A stretch of 64,000 bases of DNA from NCBI GenBank assembly GCA_002402105.1, contig NVVD01000001.1, forward strand, positions 513,345 to 577,344. Reading direction: 5' to 3'. Every line of letters begins with the position of its first letter. Position 1 is the stretch's first letter. Made by a program: the position numbers and the translations under genes. Shown piece after piece: positions 5,966 through 58,201 of the stretch. The notes under the pieces are model-generated. The model ran no database searches. It was given only the letters and a program-made list of their open reading frames with translations, and was not told where the DNA came from. The stretch comes from Candidatus Cloacimonadota bacterium. Its GTDB lineage: Bacteria > Muiribacteriota > UBA6191.

Positions 5966-6079
5966 CGTGGAGAAGATAATTGATAAATTAAATCTTCAAA
6001 AATATTTTATTTTTATGTAAGAAAGATCAAAAAAATTGTCATTCTTAACCCCATGTCCCGAGAGTTGCTAAGTGAATAC

Positions 6080-6225
6080 AGTCAAAAAGTCGGTCTTCTG
6101 GCTTATGGCTCAAACCTACTTATCATACCTTCCCATTAAAAACAGTGGTATCTATGACTTTCGTAACCAATTACAGCGGCGGGTCCGCAACGGAATTTAA
6201 CCGTTTTCCCATTACTTCTTGAAAA
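6080..6225 (-). ncRNA. Cobalamin (AdoCbl) riboswitch
   Basis: Read on the minus strand, the leader has the family landmarks in order: AATGGGAA, then ACGGTTAAATTCCGT, then GCGGACCCGCCGCTGTAA, then the B12-box-like AAAGTCATAGATACC (about 6147-6161), a GGGAAGG helix and the closing CCAGAAGACCG (about 6081-6091). It senses adenosyl- or related cobalamin and should turn down the btuB-exbBD-tonB operon when B12 is plentiful. About 135 nt separate it from the btuB start, and the Shine-Dalgarno hairpin at 5947-5965 suggests translational control. The spacer has no clear intrinsic terminator. Confidence 0.92.
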
Positions 6226-6237
6226 TTAAATTTATTT

Positions 6238-23924: not shown

Positions 23925-24001
23925 ATTTTTGGTAGGTGGGGTAGTAAGACTTTTTGAGTACTCTAGGTATGGCGAATTTTTATTGCTTTTTGGGGCTTTT
24001 C

Positions 24002-24110
24002 TTTTATGCGGTCGCATCTAATTATTATCTTTTGCTTCTCTTCATTTTCTCGTGTACATTCGTACACGTCGAAAATGAGATGAAACAAAATATAACAATT
24101 ATCTGCAACC
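24002..24110 (+). repeat. Structured intergenic element, copy 1
   Basis: One of three copies of a dispersed element. It opens with TTTTATGCGGTC (24002-24013) and closes with TGCAACC (24104-24110). The ends pair as GGT/ACC, a C-A mismatch, then GCA/TGC. Inside, CATTTTC and CGTGTAC pair with GTACACG and GAAAATG to make a long hairpin (about 24043-24081). It lies about 80 bp past the lptA stop, in the lptA direction. The upstream flank CTTTTTGGGGCTTTTCTTTT is also shared with copy 3. Confidence 0.75.
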
Positions 24111-24175
24111 TAAGAGTGGAGTAGTTGATGGATTTTTTTTCGAGTAGTAAACTTTAGTTGAGTTTTATTCCTCAT

Positions 24176-38197: not shown

Positions 38198-38272
38198 GGG
38201 TTTTAAAATGGGTAAATAAGGCGCTATGGTAATTTATTTTCAGGCGGTAGTTCTTGACTTTGTTGAGTCGTT

Positions 38273-38380
38273 TTTTATGCGGTCGTATATGGTGGCAGTT
38301 TTTCCTTTTTTTTTATTTATTCTAGTAGCCTACTACTAGTCATAAATAAAAAGAGGAAAATCTACTCACCCTATACAACC
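38273..38380 (+). repeat. Structured intergenic element, copy 2
   Basis: Opens with TTTTATGCGGTC (38273-38284) and closes with ATACAACC (38373-38380). The ends pair GGT/ACC, a C-A mismatch, then GTATA/TATAC and GG/CC. Inside is a long hairpin (38301-38360): TTTCCTTTT with AAGAGGAAAA, TTTATTTA with TAAATAAA, and CTAGTAG with CTACTAG. It lies downstream of flgE and its terminator, in the same direction. The 498-bp gap 38060-38557 holds the structured trailer, the terminator, this element and a promoter, and I see no further gene in it. Confidence 0.75.
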
Positions 38381-38487
38381 TGAGGAAAATATTTCAATTG
38401 AGATGAAGGAGTCTAAGAGCAATAAAAACTATCGATAGCTACATTGGTAAAATAATTTTTGTTTTTGGTGATTTTTCATTGTTGAAA

Positions 38488-51730: not shown

Positions 51731-51813
51731 AACTTTTAAACCTATTTCATAATTTAGAGAGGTACTAATACAAACTAAAGTTTACAATAAATAAGCCCAA
51801 AGGGTAAGGGGTT

Positions 51814-52599
51814 TTACTTTAAATGAACTCTTTGGTTCATGTCTAATTGATAAACATGACCAGTAAAAGAAAATTGATCTAAGTAGGTTTTAAATTGTTG
51901 GGGAGTGCCAGTTAAAAGAGGATAAGTGCCCCAATGTACTGGTAAAACAGAAGAAGCTTTAATCATATTGGTAGCTAATGCTGCTCTTTTTGGTCCCATT
52001 GTAAATTGGTTTCCGATGCATACAATAAATAAATCTATCTTATGAAATAAAGGTATGAGTTTCATATCAAACATTAAATCAGTATCACCAGAAAAATAAA
52101 CAGTTTTGTCATTTTTGATCTCGATAATAAAACCAACAGATGGCCCAGTATTGTGTAAAATACCCTTAGTATCAATAATTTCACTAGAGTGAATAGCTTG
52201 TGTAAAGGTAATTTTAATTTCAGGAGTGATTTGAATTTCTCCCCCAACATCACCTAAGTTTTTTTGTAATACCCTATCTTTGGGGTATTTTAAAATAGAA
52301 AGTAAATGATTGCCAAGACTATAACTAGTAATGATTTTAGCATTACTATTTGATAATATATCTCTAGTATCACCTATATGATCTCCATGTCCATGAGATA
52401 GTAAAATATAGTGAGTATCGTGTAGGCTAGTTAAAATAGTTTTACCATTTGGATTTTTGGGGTTATTAATCCAAGGGTCAATCAGTATCTTTGTCCCATT
52501 TGGTGTAATAATCTCTATACTAGAATGACCAAACCATCTGATATTTGAACAACTTACAAGTGATACTAGAATAAAAAAAAGAGAAAAGTGTCTAAGCAT
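51814..52599 (-). CDS. Lipoprotein metallo-beta-lactamase-fold hydrolase, UlaG/UPF0173-like (261 aa)
   Basis: Zinc hydrolase with a lipoprotein signal: MLRHFSLFFILVSLVSC, with the lipobox Cys at residue 17. Metal-binding motif HGHGDHIGD is present, followed by HSSEIIDT, FSGDTDLM and a final PVHWGTYPL, which together match the UlaG-like branch. The preferred ATG 52597-52599 overlaps the upstream stop (ATGCTTAG). A longer form from 52623 would put the lipobox further in. A membrane-anchored UlaG-like enzyme is unusual; its substrate is unknown. It is the third gene of tyrS-PyrE-like-hydrolase. Confidence 0.85.
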   Translation of the reverse strand: MLRHFSLFFILVSLVSCSNIRWFGHSSIEIITPNGTKILIDPWINNPKNPNGKTILTSLHDTHYILLSHGHGDHIGDTRDILSNSNAKIITSYSLGNHLLSILKYPKDRVLQKNLGDVGGEIQITPEIKITFTQAIHSSEIIDTKGILHNTGPSVGFIIEIKNDKTVYFSGDTDLMFDMKLIPLFHKIDLFIVCIGNQFTMGPKRAALATNMIKASSVLPVHWGTYPLLTGTPQQFKTYLDQFSFTGHVYQLDMNQRVHLK

Positions 52600-53128: not shown

Positions 53129-54394
53129 TTAATTTGTAAAATTTGCTAAAGCGTATTTTTTCTTACCGCTTCTAACTATCATAATAGAGTCAGAAGCTAA
53201 ATCTTCTTCACCTAACATTTTTGTTTCGTCACTAACTTTTTGATTGTTTAGATAGACTCCACCTTGTTTGATAAGTCTTCTTGCTTCACCCTTTGATTTG
53301 CAAAGACCAGCTGAAGATAATAAATCTAAAATACCAAAACTTTGATTATTTAACGAACTTTTTGAACATTCAATAGAAGGTACATCTTTAAAGATATTTA
53401 GTAAAGTTTCGTCATTTAAACCATCTAAACTACCACCAAATAACACTTGAGTTGCTTTAATTGCTAAATTAACTGCATCTTCATCATGTACAAGTTTTGT
53501 AACTTCAAAAGCTAGTGTTTTTTGTGCTTCTCTTTTGTGCGGTTCTTGCTCTAGACATTGTTGAAGTCTTTCAATTGTTTCATCAGGTAAAAAAGTAAAA
53601 TATCTTAGGTATTTGATGACTTCTGAGTCTTCTCTTTGTACCCAAAATTGATAAAATTCGTATGGGCTTGTTTTTTTAGGGTCTAACCAAAAGTTATCAC
53701 CAGTAGAGGTTTTACCAAATTTTTCACCACTGCTTGATTTGATTAAGGGAATAGTCATTCCATAAGCCTTATTGCCATTTTTTTTACGAATTAAATCAGT
53801 GCCAGCTGTGATGTTACCCCATTGGTCAGAGCCACCAACTTGTAAATTACAGTCGTGATTTTCATTTAAATATAAATAGTCGTATGCTTGTAGTACTTGA
53901 TAAGAAAATTCAGTAAATGACATTCCTTCATCAGAGCTTAGTCTTTTTTTAACGGATTCTTTTGCCATCATTTCAGTAACACGAAACATTTTACCAATAT
54001 CACGTAAAAAACTAACAAAATTATGAGTTTTGAACCAGTCCATGTTGTTTACAATTTTGGCTCCATCTTCAATTTTGATGAACTTTTTGATTTGTTTTGA
54101 TATGCCTTTTAAATTATGGTCAATGATTTCTTCTGTAAGTAAAACTCTTTCTTTTGACTTACCAGAGGGGTCACCAATCATACCAGTAGCTCCACCTAAA
54201 AGAGCGATAGGTTTATGACCAAGTTTTTGTAGTCTCATCATTGTTATTAATAGATATAAATGACCAACATGTAAAGTGTCTCCAGTTGGGTCAAAACCAC
54301 AATAAAAGGTATATGATTTATTATCTAAATCAATTTCATCCGAACTCAATTGGTGGATAAGCTCATGTTTTAAAAAGTTTTCAACAGATGACAT
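53129..54394 (-). CDS. tyrS: Tyrosyl-tRNA synthetase (421 aa)
   Basis: Class Ic synthetase charging tRNA-Tyr. The HIGH motif is HVGH in CGFDPTGDTLHVGHLYLL, the tyrosine pocket is QVGGSDQWGNITAGTDLIRK and the KMSKS loop is KFGKT(STGDNFW). An S4 RNA-binding domain closes the protein (about 355-421; GEARRLIKQGGVYLNNQKVS). Full length. Start ATG 54392-54394 preceded by an unremarkable GAG. It heads a minus-strand group with the PyrE-like and lipoprotein hydrolase genes. A T-box leader is not visible in the 233-bp upstream gap, which holds no other feature. Confidence 0.97.
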   Translation of the reverse strand: MSSVENFLKHELIHQLSSDEIDLDNKSYTFYCGFDPTGDTLHVGHLYLLITMMRLQKLGHKPIALLGGATGMIGDPSGKSKERVLLTEEIIDHNLKGISKQIKKFIKIEDGAKIVNNMDWFKTHNFVSFLRDIGKMFRVTEMMAKESVKKRLSSDEGMSFTEFSYQVLQAYDYLYLNENHDCNLQVGGSDQWGNITAGTDLIRKKNGNKAYGMTIPLIKSSSGEKFGKTSTGDNFWLDPKKTSPYEFYQFWVQREDSEVIKYLRYFTFLPDETIERLQQCLEQEPHKREAQKTLAFEVTKLVHDEDAVNLAIKATQVLFGGSLDGLNDETLLNIFKDVPSIECSKSSLNNQSFGILDLLSSAGLCKSKGEARRLIKQGGVYLNNQKVSDETKMLGEEDLASDSIMIVRSGKKKYALANFTN

Positions 54395-54627: not shown

Positions 54628-55305
54628 ATGAATAACTCGACTGATATTAGCTTACATTTTTTTGTCACAACAAAATATGCAGATTTAATTAATAAAGCAC
54701 CGTCTGAATTAGATAAATATAAACTATTAGTGGAATGTATGAAAGAAATTCACAAACCTTTAGGAATTAAAGCATATAATTGGTTAATTGACTCTAAGCA
54801 TAATTTTGAATATTATAATATTTTTAAATCTTTTGTGTGGGGATATATAAAAGGCGATAATTTATTTAAAATAAGTAATCAGAATGAAATTAAGAGATTA
54901 GATTGGTTTCAAGAACATTATATTGATAAGATTAAAGTTTTTTTTAAAGAAACACTAGTGGATATAGCGATAACTTTTAAAGAAAATAAAGTTAATATTC
55001 TTAATGAAGTTAGTTTAAAGTTTATGATGATGTCTATTCCAAGAACAACTAAATTATTAAACATATTTACAAAAAATGCCGATATGTCTAAGCAAACAAG
55101 GTTTTCGATAGAACAGCCGATTATAGCATATGTTGCGGTTTCTGATGCAGGTTTTGTAGCTACAGATAATTTAAATCTAGGTAGGGCGACGCTAGGCAAT
55201 ATTTATCCACATATAGAAAGTACTCCAGGTTTAAATTCAAACTTCCATTATAGAGGAATAATTTTTGATGCCAGATCTATAGATAAAATAGAAGTGAGGA
55301 AATAA
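54628..55305 (+). CDS. Hypothetical protein, first gene of three-gene cassette (225 aa)
   Basis: Not recognised. Helical and basic over the first 110 residues (SELDKYKLLVECMKEIHKPL, DWFQEHYIDKIKVFFKETLV), then strand-rich in the last 70 (EQPIIAYVAVSDAGFVATDN, NFHYRGIIFDARSIDKIEVR). No signal peptide, membrane helix or catalytic signature. A clear Shine-Dalgarno is absent before the ATG, and the codon use is AT-rich like its neighbours. The next gene starts 2 bp after the stop (TAATAATG), so the two are coupled. Possible roles include an effector in a toxin-antitoxin or defence cassette, inferred from context alone. Confidence 0.65.
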   Translation: MNNSTDISLHFFVTTKYADLINKAPSELDKYKLLVECMKEIHKPLGIKAYNWLIDSKHNFEYYNIFKSFVWGYIKGDNLFKISNQNEIKRLDWFQEHYIDKIKVFFKETLVDIAITFKENKVNILNEVSLKFMMMSIPRTTKLLNIFTKNADMSKQTRFSIEQPIIAYVAVSDAGFVATDNLNLGRATLGNIYPHIESTPGLNSNFHYRGIIFDARSIDKIEVRK

Positions 55306-55307
55306 TA

Positions 55308-55769
55308 ATGTATGAAACTTTAAGAGATTTGAAGTCTGATAAAGGCTTGGAACTTCTGGCTTATGAAATAGTATTAGAAATTATTGGAAATAAACTTTAT
55401 TCAACTTGTGATAAAGGTTTCACTAATTTTATTAGAAACCATTTATCAAGTGATGATAAAATTGATAAAATTTATGAAAAATACCCTAAAACATTAGTTA
55501 GAGTATTAGAAAAATTAAGAGAAAACCTACAAAAACGAGTAGAAGACCTTCCAGTTTTTGAAAGCTTTGAAAAAGAAGTTAGACAGCTATTTTTAAAAGA
55601 ACACTGTGTAGATTTTATACAACTGGATGGGAATATGCACTTGGGACCTAACTCATTTTTAAAAAGAGAAAAGTCTTCAATATCAAAAAGAAAAAGAAAA
55701 CCAAAACCAATACAAATTCAAAGTGGTAGTATTAGCCCTAGATCATTCGGTTGTGCTTTAACTGTATAA
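55308..55769 (+). CDS. Hypothetical protein, second gene of cassette (153 aa)
   Basis: Not recognised. The first 110 residues are helical and charged (SDKGLELLAYEIVLEIIGNK, IDKIYEKYPKTLVRVLEKLR, LRENLQKRVEDLPVFESFEK). The C-terminal 35 residues are a basic, probably flexible tail (KREKSSISKRKRKPKPIQIQ) ending in SFGCALTV. It is tightly coupled to the first gene and 18 bp from the third. The basic tail could contact nucleic acid or a partner protein. Confidence 0.65.
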   Translation: MYETLRDLKSDKGLELLAYEIVLEIIGNKLYSTCDKGFTNFIRNHLSSDDKIDKIYEKYPKTLVRVLEKLRENLQKRVEDLPVFESFEKEVRQLFLKEHCVDFIQLDGNMHLGPNSFLKREKSSISKRKRKPKPIQIQSGSISPRSFGCALTV

Positions 55770-55787
55770 ATATTAGAGGTAACTTAG

Positions 55788-56153
55788 ATGATAGTTTCTA
55801 AAATTGATTATGACGAATGTGAGTATTATCCAGATTTAATTAGTGATGAAGAGAAAGGAAACTCTTTAGAGCAGCTTTGGGATAGCTATATTTTAGAGAA
55901 TACTTCTGAATTAATTAGGTTTGCAGCAAGAATAGAAGTTAAACTTGGTGCTAAAAAGGTTTTAACTTTTAGAATAATAGGTACTTATAAGAAAAGTGAA
56001 AGTATTCGTCTTTCTGAACGGCAAGTTTATGCTGAAGCAAATAGGCAATTGTACCCGATTATGCAAACAATGGTAGAGCTATATACAGACGTAATGGGTA
56101 GAAAACTTACGATTCTTCCATCTATAGAAAGTTTAGACCTATTTTTGGAATAA
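55788..56153 (+). CDS. Possible SecB-like chaperone, third gene of cassette (121 aa)
   Basis: A short acidic N-terminus (IDYDECEYYPDLISDEEKGN) is followed by two long strands (RFAARIEVKLGAKKVLTFRI, IGTYKKSESIRLSERQVYAE) and a C-terminal helix plus hydrophobic end (NRQLYPIMQTMVELYTDVMG, TILPSIESLDLF). The order strands-helix-LxP.I resembles the end of the SecB fold (LFPYAR...L....FPPL.L.PVNFDALF). SecB-like proteins also occur as chaperones of toxin-antitoxin-chaperone modules. The match is by eye and weak. It lies 18 bp past the second gene and precedes structured element copy 3. Confidence 0.45.
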   Translation: MIVSKIDYDECEYYPDLISDEEKGNSLEQLWDSYILENTSELIRFAARIEVKLGAKKVLTFRIIGTYKKSESIRLSERQVYAEANRQLYPIMQTMVELYTDVMGRKLTILPSIESLDLFLE

Positions 56154-56172
56154 ATATCAAAGCTTAAACCAA

Positions 56173-56280
56173 GGTTACAGATGATGATTGTATTTTTCTA
56201 TTTTTATTTTCGACTAGTAGTTTACTACTTGAGAAAATAAGGAAAAGAAAAAGACATTTATCAGATGTGACCGCATAAAA
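56173..56280 (-). repeat. Structured intergenic element, copy 3 (inverted)
   Basis: On the minus strand it opens with TTTTATGCGGTC (56280 to 56269) and closes with TGTAACC (56179 to 56173). The ends pair GGT/ACC, a C-A mismatch, then ACA/TGT. The inner hairpin pairs TTATTTTC with GAAAATAA around AAGTAG-TAAA-CTACTAG. The upstream flank CTTTTTGGTGCTTTTCTTTT is shared with copy 1. It lies 77 nt past the stop of the phosphatase gene, in that gene's direction, between converging genes. Confidence 0.75.
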
Positions 56281-56356
56281 AGAAAAGCACCAAAAAGTCC
56301 TCAAGACACCAAAAATTTTAGACTTACAAGCCAATAAAACTTCTCACCCTCAAAAA

Positions 56357-58201
56357 TTATTTGAGTTTGGCTACGTCGATTAACTCACCTGTCGATGAAA
56401 TTGCTGAAAGAAATACACCATTTTCTTCGATATTAACTAAGATAAAATGTTGTTTCCAGTCAAACTTTTTAACATTTTTTGACCAAGGTAAGTTTTTGAC
56501 TTGATAATAATAAGGAGCGCCAACGCCACCAGAAATCATTTGCCAAACATCATGTTTAAAACCTAAGTCTTTGTTAGATGGGACGATTGTTCTTGAGTAG
56601 TTGTGCTCATCTCCAAACATTGCAAAAACAGTTTTTGAAGAAGCTGAAATACTTTTCCAAAATCGGTTTCGCATGATGTTTACATAGTTTCTATCAAAAC
56701 CAGAGTTAAACTCTTTTTTACCGTTGCCATAATACATACCGTCTGTCCAATGGACACTATTTGGGTAAGCAGGCTCATGGGTAAATACAAAAATATATTT
56801 AATGTTTTTATCATTATGAAAGTTTTGGACGGTTTCATCAATCCATTTTAGTTGACCATCCATGATATGGCCCTCTAGGTTTCCACCATTTAAAACCTCT
56901 GGGTCTGATGTATACCAATAATTGGTATTTGCCATAATAAAACCAACTCCGTTGTAAGAGTATGAGTAAACATTTTCCTTGTAAGTTGGAGTGTTTTTAG
57001 CTTCTGGTTTTGGGCCATTTGTTGGGTTTACAAAATGTTTGGCAAATAAGCTTTCTGTAGAAATATCAGGGTGAGGAATAGAAAAACTCCCCCATTTTGC
57101 TTTTGGAGCAGTAGTTTTATCCTTTGCTCTAAAGCGTCCAAGTAGGGCTTCGTGGTTTCCCATTCCCTCATAGATTGGTATATATCTACCAACTGGTGTT
57201 GAGGCCTTTTTCCAGGCTGCTATTTGTTGATTAAAGTCACTAATACTTGTAGTATAACCATCAATTAAATCCCCAGGAAATACAATGAGTTCAGCACCTT
57301 TATCATAGGCTTTACGAAATAAGTTTTTAATAGATTTTGTATTTGTACCTTGTAGCTCGACCTCTCCACCACCAAGACCAGAGCGAGAGTCAGACATACA
57401 AGCAAATGAAAATGGAATGAATGAGTCTGAGGATGTTTTGATATTTAGTTTGGGATAATTATACCATGAAGATATTTTACTGTTTTCGATATTAGGTAAT
57501 TGTACTTGATAGGTGTATTTTTGATTTTGCTTTACATCAATCTTAATTTCATGGTGTTTTGACTTTTTAAAAGGGATAACTCGAAACTCTGTTTTGTTTT
57601 CTTCTTGTAGTGTAATTTTACCTTCAGAGGCTATATCTAAATCAAAGCTAATGATAATTTCTCCAGCTTTATGTGTATCGTAAAAAGGGCCGTAAAGAAG
57701 GTTAGATTGTAGTGATCTTTGGTTTTGTTTATTTTTATAATATCTAAAACTAGTTTGATATATATCATTAGCTTGTTTTTTTGGATTATAAAACTCAAAT
57801 TGTAAGGGGACAATACCACCAGATACAGCATAACCAGCAGCATCATATTTTGTTTTTTCAGGGGAGTATCTTGATTTAGGGTTAAAATTAAAAGAAAACT
57901 GATGCTTTTTATCAAAATTTTGTGAATTTTCTTTGAGTTTATATCTTAATCTTGGATAAGGAAAGTTTTGGTTTGGATGAATATGACCAAAGTATAAAAC
58001 TCCTGGATGGGTATCTTTTAGAGTTTCGATTTTGATCTGAAGCTCTTGATCTTTTGAAATAGTAATAGAGGGTTCTGATTTATAAAATTGAATGCCTCTT
58101 TCTTCTTTGATTGTTTCAAAGTTAGCTTTTGGGCTTAACTTTAGGTTAGGGGTAAAAGAAAAAGTCGTTGAACTAATAATTAAAGCTAACAAAAAATACA
58201 T
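56357..58201 (-). CDS. Secreted purple acid phosphatase-like metallophosphoesterase (614 aa)
   Basis: Exported phosphoesterase. A signal peptide (1-15) is followed by an N-terminal beta-rich domain (about 20-265) and a calcineurin-like catalytic domain (about 268-590) with motif order CMSDSRSG, FPGDLIDG, YEGMGNHEALLG, FVFTHEPAY and MFGDEHNYSR, which supply the dimetal ligands Asp, Asp, Asn-His, His and His. The N-terminal domain may bind substrate or the cell surface. Structured element copy 3 lies just downstream. Phosphate scavenging together with the NptA transporter is plausible but not shown. Confidence 0.88.
   Translation of the reverse strand: MYFLLALIISSTTFSFTPNLKLSPKANFETIKEERGIQFYKSEPSITISKDQELQIKIETLKDTHPGVLYFGHIHPNQNFPYPRLRYKLKENSQNFDKKHQFSFNFNPKSRYSPEKTKYDAAGYAVSGGIVPLQFEFYNPKKQANDIYQTSFRYYKNKQNQRSLQSNLLYGPFYDTHKAGEIIISFDLDIASEGKITLQEENKTEFRVIPFKKSKHHEIKIDVKQNQKYTYQVQLPNIENSKISSWYNYPKLNIKTSSDSFIPFSFACMSDSRSGLGGGEVELQGTNTKSIKNLFRKAYDKGAELIVFPGDLIDGYTTSISDFNQQIAAWKKASTPVGRYIPIYEGMGNHEALLGRFRAKDKTTAPKAKWGSFSIPHPDISTESLFAKHFVNPTNGPKPEAKNTPTYKENVYSYSYNGVGFIMANTNYWYTSDPEVLNGGNLEGHIMDGQLKWIDETVQNFHNDKNIKYIFVFTHEPAYPNSVHWTDGMYYGNGKKEFNSGFDRNYVNIMRNRFWKSISASSKTVFAMFGDEHNYSRTIVPSNKDLGFKHDVWQMISGGVGAPYYYQVKNLPWSKNVKKFDWKQHFILVNIEENGVFLSAISSTGELIDVAKLK

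Follow-up and report, generated by a model that had tools for sequence, protein, structure and literature searches.

Some toxin-antitoxin-chaperone (TAC) systems protect bacteria from phages, and the two described designs with which we compared the locus reported here are CmdTAC (PD-T4-9) and HigBA-SecB. Published work on CmdTAC describes the toxin CmdT as an ADP-ribosyltransferase with an HY-[EDQ] triad, ascribes the loss of CmdA during infection to ClpXP, and reports that defence requires ClpP (PMC11618068). A second account gives the mutual identity of TAC chaperones as being as low as 14% and describes chaperone-addiction tails as sharing no common sequence (PMC5105189). The CmdTAC operons that we collected encode toxins of 172-204 aa (n=15), antitoxins of 76-149 aa (n=16), and chaperones of 125-145 aa (n=16). 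All 15 complete CmdT-like proteins carry the first CmdT motif, with His at its first position in 13 of them and Gln in L042 and L058, and all 15 likewise carry the G.G.Y or G[YF]Y motif. The CmdA-like antitoxins (the L013, L039-L042, and L056-L068 set) end in -AA in 14 of 16 cases, with L042 and L067 as exceptions, and otherwise differ widely in sequence; the -AA end would suit a ClpX-type degradation signal.

TAC-like modules occur both in the genome that contains our locus (G000) and in its phylum. In G000, a CmdTAC-like operon (L107, also L013; Table 1) encodes a toxin, an antitoxin, and a chaperone of 201, 79, and 126 aa, respectively. The toxin carries FHGT and GIGTYF motifs, the antitoxin ends in -AA, and the chaperone matches PD-T4-9_C (E 8.5e-36) and SecB (E 2.6e-7). 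The L013 toxin has no match to PADLOC PD-T4-9_A at E≤1, a model matched by five other toxins (L040, L058, and L061 at 4.5e-5 or better, L067 at 0.002, and L064 at 0.0072), and it is similar over 48 residues (E 4e-8) to the L039 toxin, which itself has no PADLOC match. Because of its motifs, its similarity to the L039 toxin, and the adjacent chaperone, we read the L013 toxin as CmdT-like (ADP-ribosyltransferase-like). A tyrosine-recombinase-like ORF fragment was seen by eye just upstream of this operon.

Among relatives in the phylum, SecB-like genes lie behind HTH-type antitoxins in G034 (L015), in G014 (L016 and L023, the latter with a shortened toxin ORF), and in G023 (L017). Domains were scanned for L015 and L016: L016 has a Gp49/RelE-type toxin and an HTH antitoxin, and the Gp49 match of the L015 toxin falls below the cut-off. 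Two of the 39 phylum genomes have a gene above the cut-off of the SecB model PF02556, one of the two being the L013 chaperone, and ordinary SecB seems rare in the phylum as judged from these matches. No toxin-antitoxin neighbours were recognised beside the other PF02556 gene (L014:1414-1872, in G003). Since TAC chaperones thus circulate in both genome and phylum, the prior for finding another TAC module at our locus is raised.

The locus lies in a stretch of 64,000 nucleotides, analysed as a whole and called the window below. As the earlier note had described, it comprises three tightly spaced genes (Table 1), with 2 nt between genes 1 and 2 and 18 nt between genes 2 and 3, and the flanking genes that the note had named, tyrS and a phosphatase gene, were recovered by family searches; both are on the strand opposite to the cassette. 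As read from the sequence, GAGG/AGAGG-like ribosome-binding sites precede genes 2 and 3, and gene 1 has no obvious one. GC3 is 0.19, 0.149, and 0.213 for genes 1, 2, and 3, respectively, compared with a mean of 0.188 (sd 0.026) for the window's 46 large ORFs, a set that includes genes 1 and 2 themselves. The values for all three fit those of the window, so these appear to be genuine genes whose codon usage is native. A foreign composition of the cassette was rejected, GC and GC3 both being native. Short direct repeats are present in the tyrS-phosphatase interval; they were viewed with no control set, and nothing is concluded from them.

Table 1. Positions of the cassette, its neighbours, and related features (window coordinates unless a contig is named)
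Feature	Position	Strand	Remarks
Gene 1	54628..55305	+	ORF, 225 aa; proposed toxin; no recognisable family
Gene 2	55308..55769	+	ORF, 153 aa; proposed antitoxin; weak resemblance to LanM N-terminal region
Gene 3	55788..56153	+	ORF, 121 aa; proposed divergent SecB-like chaperone
tyrS	53129..54394	-	left flank, outside cassette; TIGR00234 E 7.8e-118; orthologue in G033
Metallophosphatase gene (calcineurin-like phosphoesterase)	56357..58201	-	right flank, outside cassette; Metallophos PF00149 E 5.9e-8; orthologue in G033
Hairpin repeat copy, 115 bp	56168..56282	+	just 3' of cassette; inside the stretch that G033 lacks
Hairpin repeat, further copies in window	38271-38385, 24000-24115		between large ORFs, as is the copy above
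tyrS of G033	C32:28977-30236		85% identity to the window's tyrS
Phosphatase gene of G033	C32:30467-32305		83% identity to the window's gene
CmdTAC-like operon L107 (also L013)	G000:C7:60733-61951		same genome as window; assigned by motifs and chaperone match

Comparison with G033, the sole other genome of the same genus searched, identified the cassette as an accessory, insertion-like block inside a syntenic region. The distance between tyrS and the phosphatase gene is 230 bp in G033, where the cassette is absent, versus 1,962 bp in the window. The region had been called otherwise stable, which holds for gene order, with ~18 kb collinear between the window and G033, but not for the cassette itself or for two further length differences of ~2.1 and ~0.6 kb. 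The ~2.1 kb is extra DNA in G033 (L012:5513-7716, corresponding to window positions 51743-51865) and contains one long ORF of 595 aa that is repetitive and has a lipoprotein-like start. Because 38 of the 39 phylum genomes have no match to gene 1 at E≤0.001, the single match being in the window's own genome, gain of the cassette in the window's species is the simpler reading, with its loss in G033 as a live alternative. Divergence of the intergenic DNA blurs the exact ends of the cassette.

Weak matches to gene 3 in nine other genomes among the phylum relatives (E 0.06 to 1) look like chance, as do those to gene 2 in four other genomes (E 0.013 to 0.095). None of the collections searched yielded a relative of the trio. 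IMG/VR scans returned none for gene 1, for gene 2, or for gene 3 either alone or in alignments A2, A3, and A4, nor did an IMG/VR scan with the L016-type chaperones (alignment A7) or a scan of a genome-contig collection with gene 1 and alignment A5. Plasmid searches with genes 1 and 3 and with the L015 and L016 chaperones were likewise empty, a phage search with gene 3 gave no relative, phage searches with genes 1 and 2 gave nothing better than E 3, and PDB sequence searches gave no convincing match for the cassette proteins. Since the pattern scans detect fairly close relatives only, distant relatives of the cassette may exist.

The family searches agreed with the earlier note that the genes match no known family, in that Pfam, NCBIfam, PHROGs, and PADLOC gave no convincing assignment for any of the three. 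The best library matches of gene 1 were PglZ (E 0.004, marginal, from a defence library) and GldC (E 0.061), and those of gene 2 were DUF7203 (E 0.004, 17.7 bits with a cut-off of 27) and LanM (E 0.031). Gene 3 came closest to a PHROG without assigned function (E 0.027) and to a transportin repeat (E 0.059). The DUF7203 lead was rejected, as its cut-off was reached in none of the 19 genomes searched. Beyond the marginal PglZ match of gene 1, the defence libraries returned nothing for the cassette, and defence or mobile genes were not recognised among the scanned neighbours. These results, together with the native GC3, would suit lineage-specific genes with an ordinary, unrelated function (regulation, metabolism, or envelope) that form no conflict system; we nevertheless consider this quite unlikely, since three small genes packed closely together, of sporadic occurrence and sited at an indel, are what an accessory module typically looks like.

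The note had also seen a weak SecB-like ending in gene 3, which stood out against one profile but less so in other comparisons. That profile was built from 22 SecB-like proteins: L013 from the window's genome, five each from relatives and plasmid records, and 11 from IMG/VR, the last representing 11 of 17 loci after L063, L065, and L069-L072 were dropped as near duplicates; the starts of L062_C and L064_C were chosen by hand. Gene 3 scored 7.0 bits, its residues 42-113 aligning in register with the conserved part of these proteins, and 3 of 5,000 and 7 of 10,000 shuffles scored as high in separate runs. It was above all 1,000 shuffles with an earlier 11-protein profile, and 16 of 5,000 shuffles matched its score with a five-protein profile that lacked CmdC. 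When 192 real ORFs served as decoys for the 22-protein profile, the only one to beat gene 3 was the L072 chaperone, one of these near duplicates.

Against a CmdC-only profile, gene 3 gave no signal (rank 193 of 988): its score was reached by 208 of 5,000 shuffles and by 5 of 192 real ORFs, a TAC chaperone among the five. Adding E. coli SecB to the 22-protein profile weakened the match of gene 3 (238 of 10,000 shuffles). Global alignment with a second scheme, the first having been discarded as powerless because E. coli SecB itself failed, placed 95 and 246 of 10,000 shuffles as high as gene 3 (z 2.66 and 2.15), compared with z 1.84 for reversed gene 3 and z 1.79 for gene 1. The five SecB-like positive controls, each scored with a profile from which it had been omitted (L016 together with its two near relatives), were all far above gene 3: they reached 16-46 bits, a level attained by 0 of 10,000 shuffles, and global z values of 5.1-9.2. 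Comparison of gene 3 alone with CmdC by hhalign gave a probability of 0.2%, and gene 3 had no Pfam SecB match and no PADLOC PD-T4-9_C match at E≤10. Its single-sequence AlphaFold2 model was too poor to interpret (pLDDT 54.6), and no SecB was among the 50 PDB matches listed for that model. Identity of gene 3 to the six other members of alignment A1 is 12-23%, a range that includes the 14% given above as the low end for TAC chaperones. Taken together, the resemblance of gene 3 to SecB is suggestive but borderline and falls short of establishing homology.

Genes 1 and 2 gave no signal against the CmdT and CmdA profiles, with 342 and 291 of 5,000 shuffles, respectively, scoring as high. Gene 1 had no PADLOC PD-T4-9_A match, contained neither of the CmdT motifs ([H/Q]-[T/A/C].. 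and G.G.Y/G[YF]Y) by regular expression and by eye, and has no motif of the HY-[EDQ] type; its single-sequence AlphaFold2 model was too poor to interpret (pLDDT 33.2). In Pfam, gene 2 matched no HTH domain, and neither gene showed a RelE/HigB-type toxin or HTH antitoxin domain. The C-terminal tail of gene 2 is basic and Ser/Pro-rich, and the protein ends in -ALTV. The cassette resembles CmdTAC in its three genes, their size order, their close spacing, and a possible SecB-like third gene, but differs in that gene 1 lacks the CmdT motifs and profile signal, gene 2 is dissimilar to CmdA and lacks the usual -AA end, and gene 3 lacks a PD-T4-9_C match. With the HigBA-SecB modules (L015, L016, and L017) it shares a three-gene layout in which a possible SecB-like gene comes last, but the Gp49/RelE-type toxin and the HTH antitoxin, both present in L016, were not found in it by Pfam.

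An insertion-like, species-specific block of three short, co-oriented genes whose first two members are unlike the CmdT and CmdA profiles, and whose third gives a borderline SecB signal, below those of all five controls, could also be an accessory conflict module of another design (toxin-antitoxin or abortive infection), with gene 3 not SecB-like and its resemblance due to chance. We regard this as rather unlikely given that the SecB match of gene 3 is in register and in the right operon position, and that TAC-like modules are already present in the window's genome.

The leading explanation, which we hold tentatively, is instead that the cassette is a very divergent, species-specific TAC module. 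Its gene order, sizes (225/153/121 aa), and close spacing are like those of the collected CmdTAC operons; its absence from the G033 interval and the restriction of gene 1 to 1 of 39 genomes are as expected for an accessory module; gene 3 scored above 4,997 of 5,000 and 9,993 of 10,000 shuffles with the 22-protein profile; and a CmdTAC-like operon occurs in the same genome, with SecB-like genes behind HTH antitoxins in relatives. Weighing against a TAC module are the lack of a Pfam or PADLOC match for gene 3, its null result with the CmdC-only profile, and the far better scores of all five controls, as well as the lack of an HTH domain, CmdA similarity, or an -AA end in gene 2 and of any trio relative in the searches. 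Of the earlier proposal of a toxin-antitoxin, defence, or secretion module, the accessory, insertion-like state and the TAC-like order and sizes stood, and TAC-like modules are present in genome and phylum, but SecB homology of gene 3 was not established.

For the roles of all three genes, and for the mechanism as a whole, we infer the following. Gene 1 would encode the toxin; the product of gene 2 would be an antitoxin whose C-terminal tail serves chaperone addiction, and that of gene 3 a SecB-like chaperone that would stabilise the antitoxin in the resting cell. Diversion of the chaperone, which in CmdTAC is by newly made phage capsid protein, would lead to degradation of the antitoxin, and the freed toxin would then stop growth and phage production. 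The fuller proposition, that this TAC module has undescribed toxin and antitoxin families and the most divergent SecB-like TAC chaperone compared, and that it exists beside a CmdTAC-like module in the genome, is possible but doubtful. If the cassette is a TAC module, chaperone addiction would extend beyond the HigBA, MqsRA, HicAB, and CmdTA families, and the cassette would supply both a toxin and a phage-sensing chaperone-antitoxin pair that are new and could be tested; if it is not, it would be an accessory cassette of orphan genes, and the firmer outcome would be the family of covarying hairpin repeats described below.

Two blind searches with gene 2 agreed on one family, the LanM type 2 lanthipeptide synthetases: NCBIfam TIGR03897 was the LanM library match given above, and in a plasmid search Priestia LanM was the sole match (2 records, E 1). 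The likeness consists of a weak alignment of residues 14-137 of gene 2 with LanM 171-297, in the N-terminal region, and the pairwise match reached 42.7 bits (29% over 133 columns), extending to a GD.H ... YKPR stretch. Gene 2 scored 13.4 bits against a profile of 11 LanMs and 11.3 bits after removal of Priestia LanM, and 0 of 10,000 shuffles reached either score, in a test that is not independent because LanM was chosen post hoc from large libraries. Gene 2 might accordingly be a free-standing protein related to the LanM N-terminal region, or a remnant of that region, and the trio might belong to a peptide-modification context. This appears very improbable: one of the 11 LanMs matches gene 2 well pairwise, with two more at E 0.1; in a phmmer search of the PDB with gene 2, no LanM was among the matches at E≤10; neither gene 1 (-2.4 bits) nor gene 3 (-1.2 bits) is similar to the LanM profile; and a Pfam scan found no lanthipeptide genes among the scanned neighbours. 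Gene 2, at 153 aa, is also about one-seventh the length of the 1,073-aa Priestia enzyme, most of which is missing from it. We treat the resemblance as a lead only.

The structured element that had been reported to adjoin the cassette was borne out, with intergenic positions 56154-56356 folding at -42.4 kcal/mol (z -5.1). The hairpin that it contains belongs to a dispersed, covarying 115-bp repeat family, of which three copies lie in the window. Of the 39 phylum genomes, two contain the repeat, both of the window's genus, with at least 49 and at least 50 matches (E≤0.001), counts that include opposite-strand duplicates and come from at most 95 candidates scored per genome; in G000 it occupies at least 28 distinct places. 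No Rfam family reaches its gathering score at the repeat. The alignment was made from 17 of 19 sequences, L104 having been dropped as a partial match and L092 because its aligned row looks identical to that of L091, although the whole stretches differ. Across these 17 aligned copies, the 34 hairpin pairs are kept in 96.2% of cells, and 16 of the 34 show compensatory changes on both sides. None of 500 shuffles reached any of five measures; with the structure taken from these very sequences and the copies related to one another, such controls are flattering, yet the number of compensatory changes is large. Elsewhere in the window, a cobalamin riboswitch is found at 6071-6234 on the minus strand (88.7 bits).
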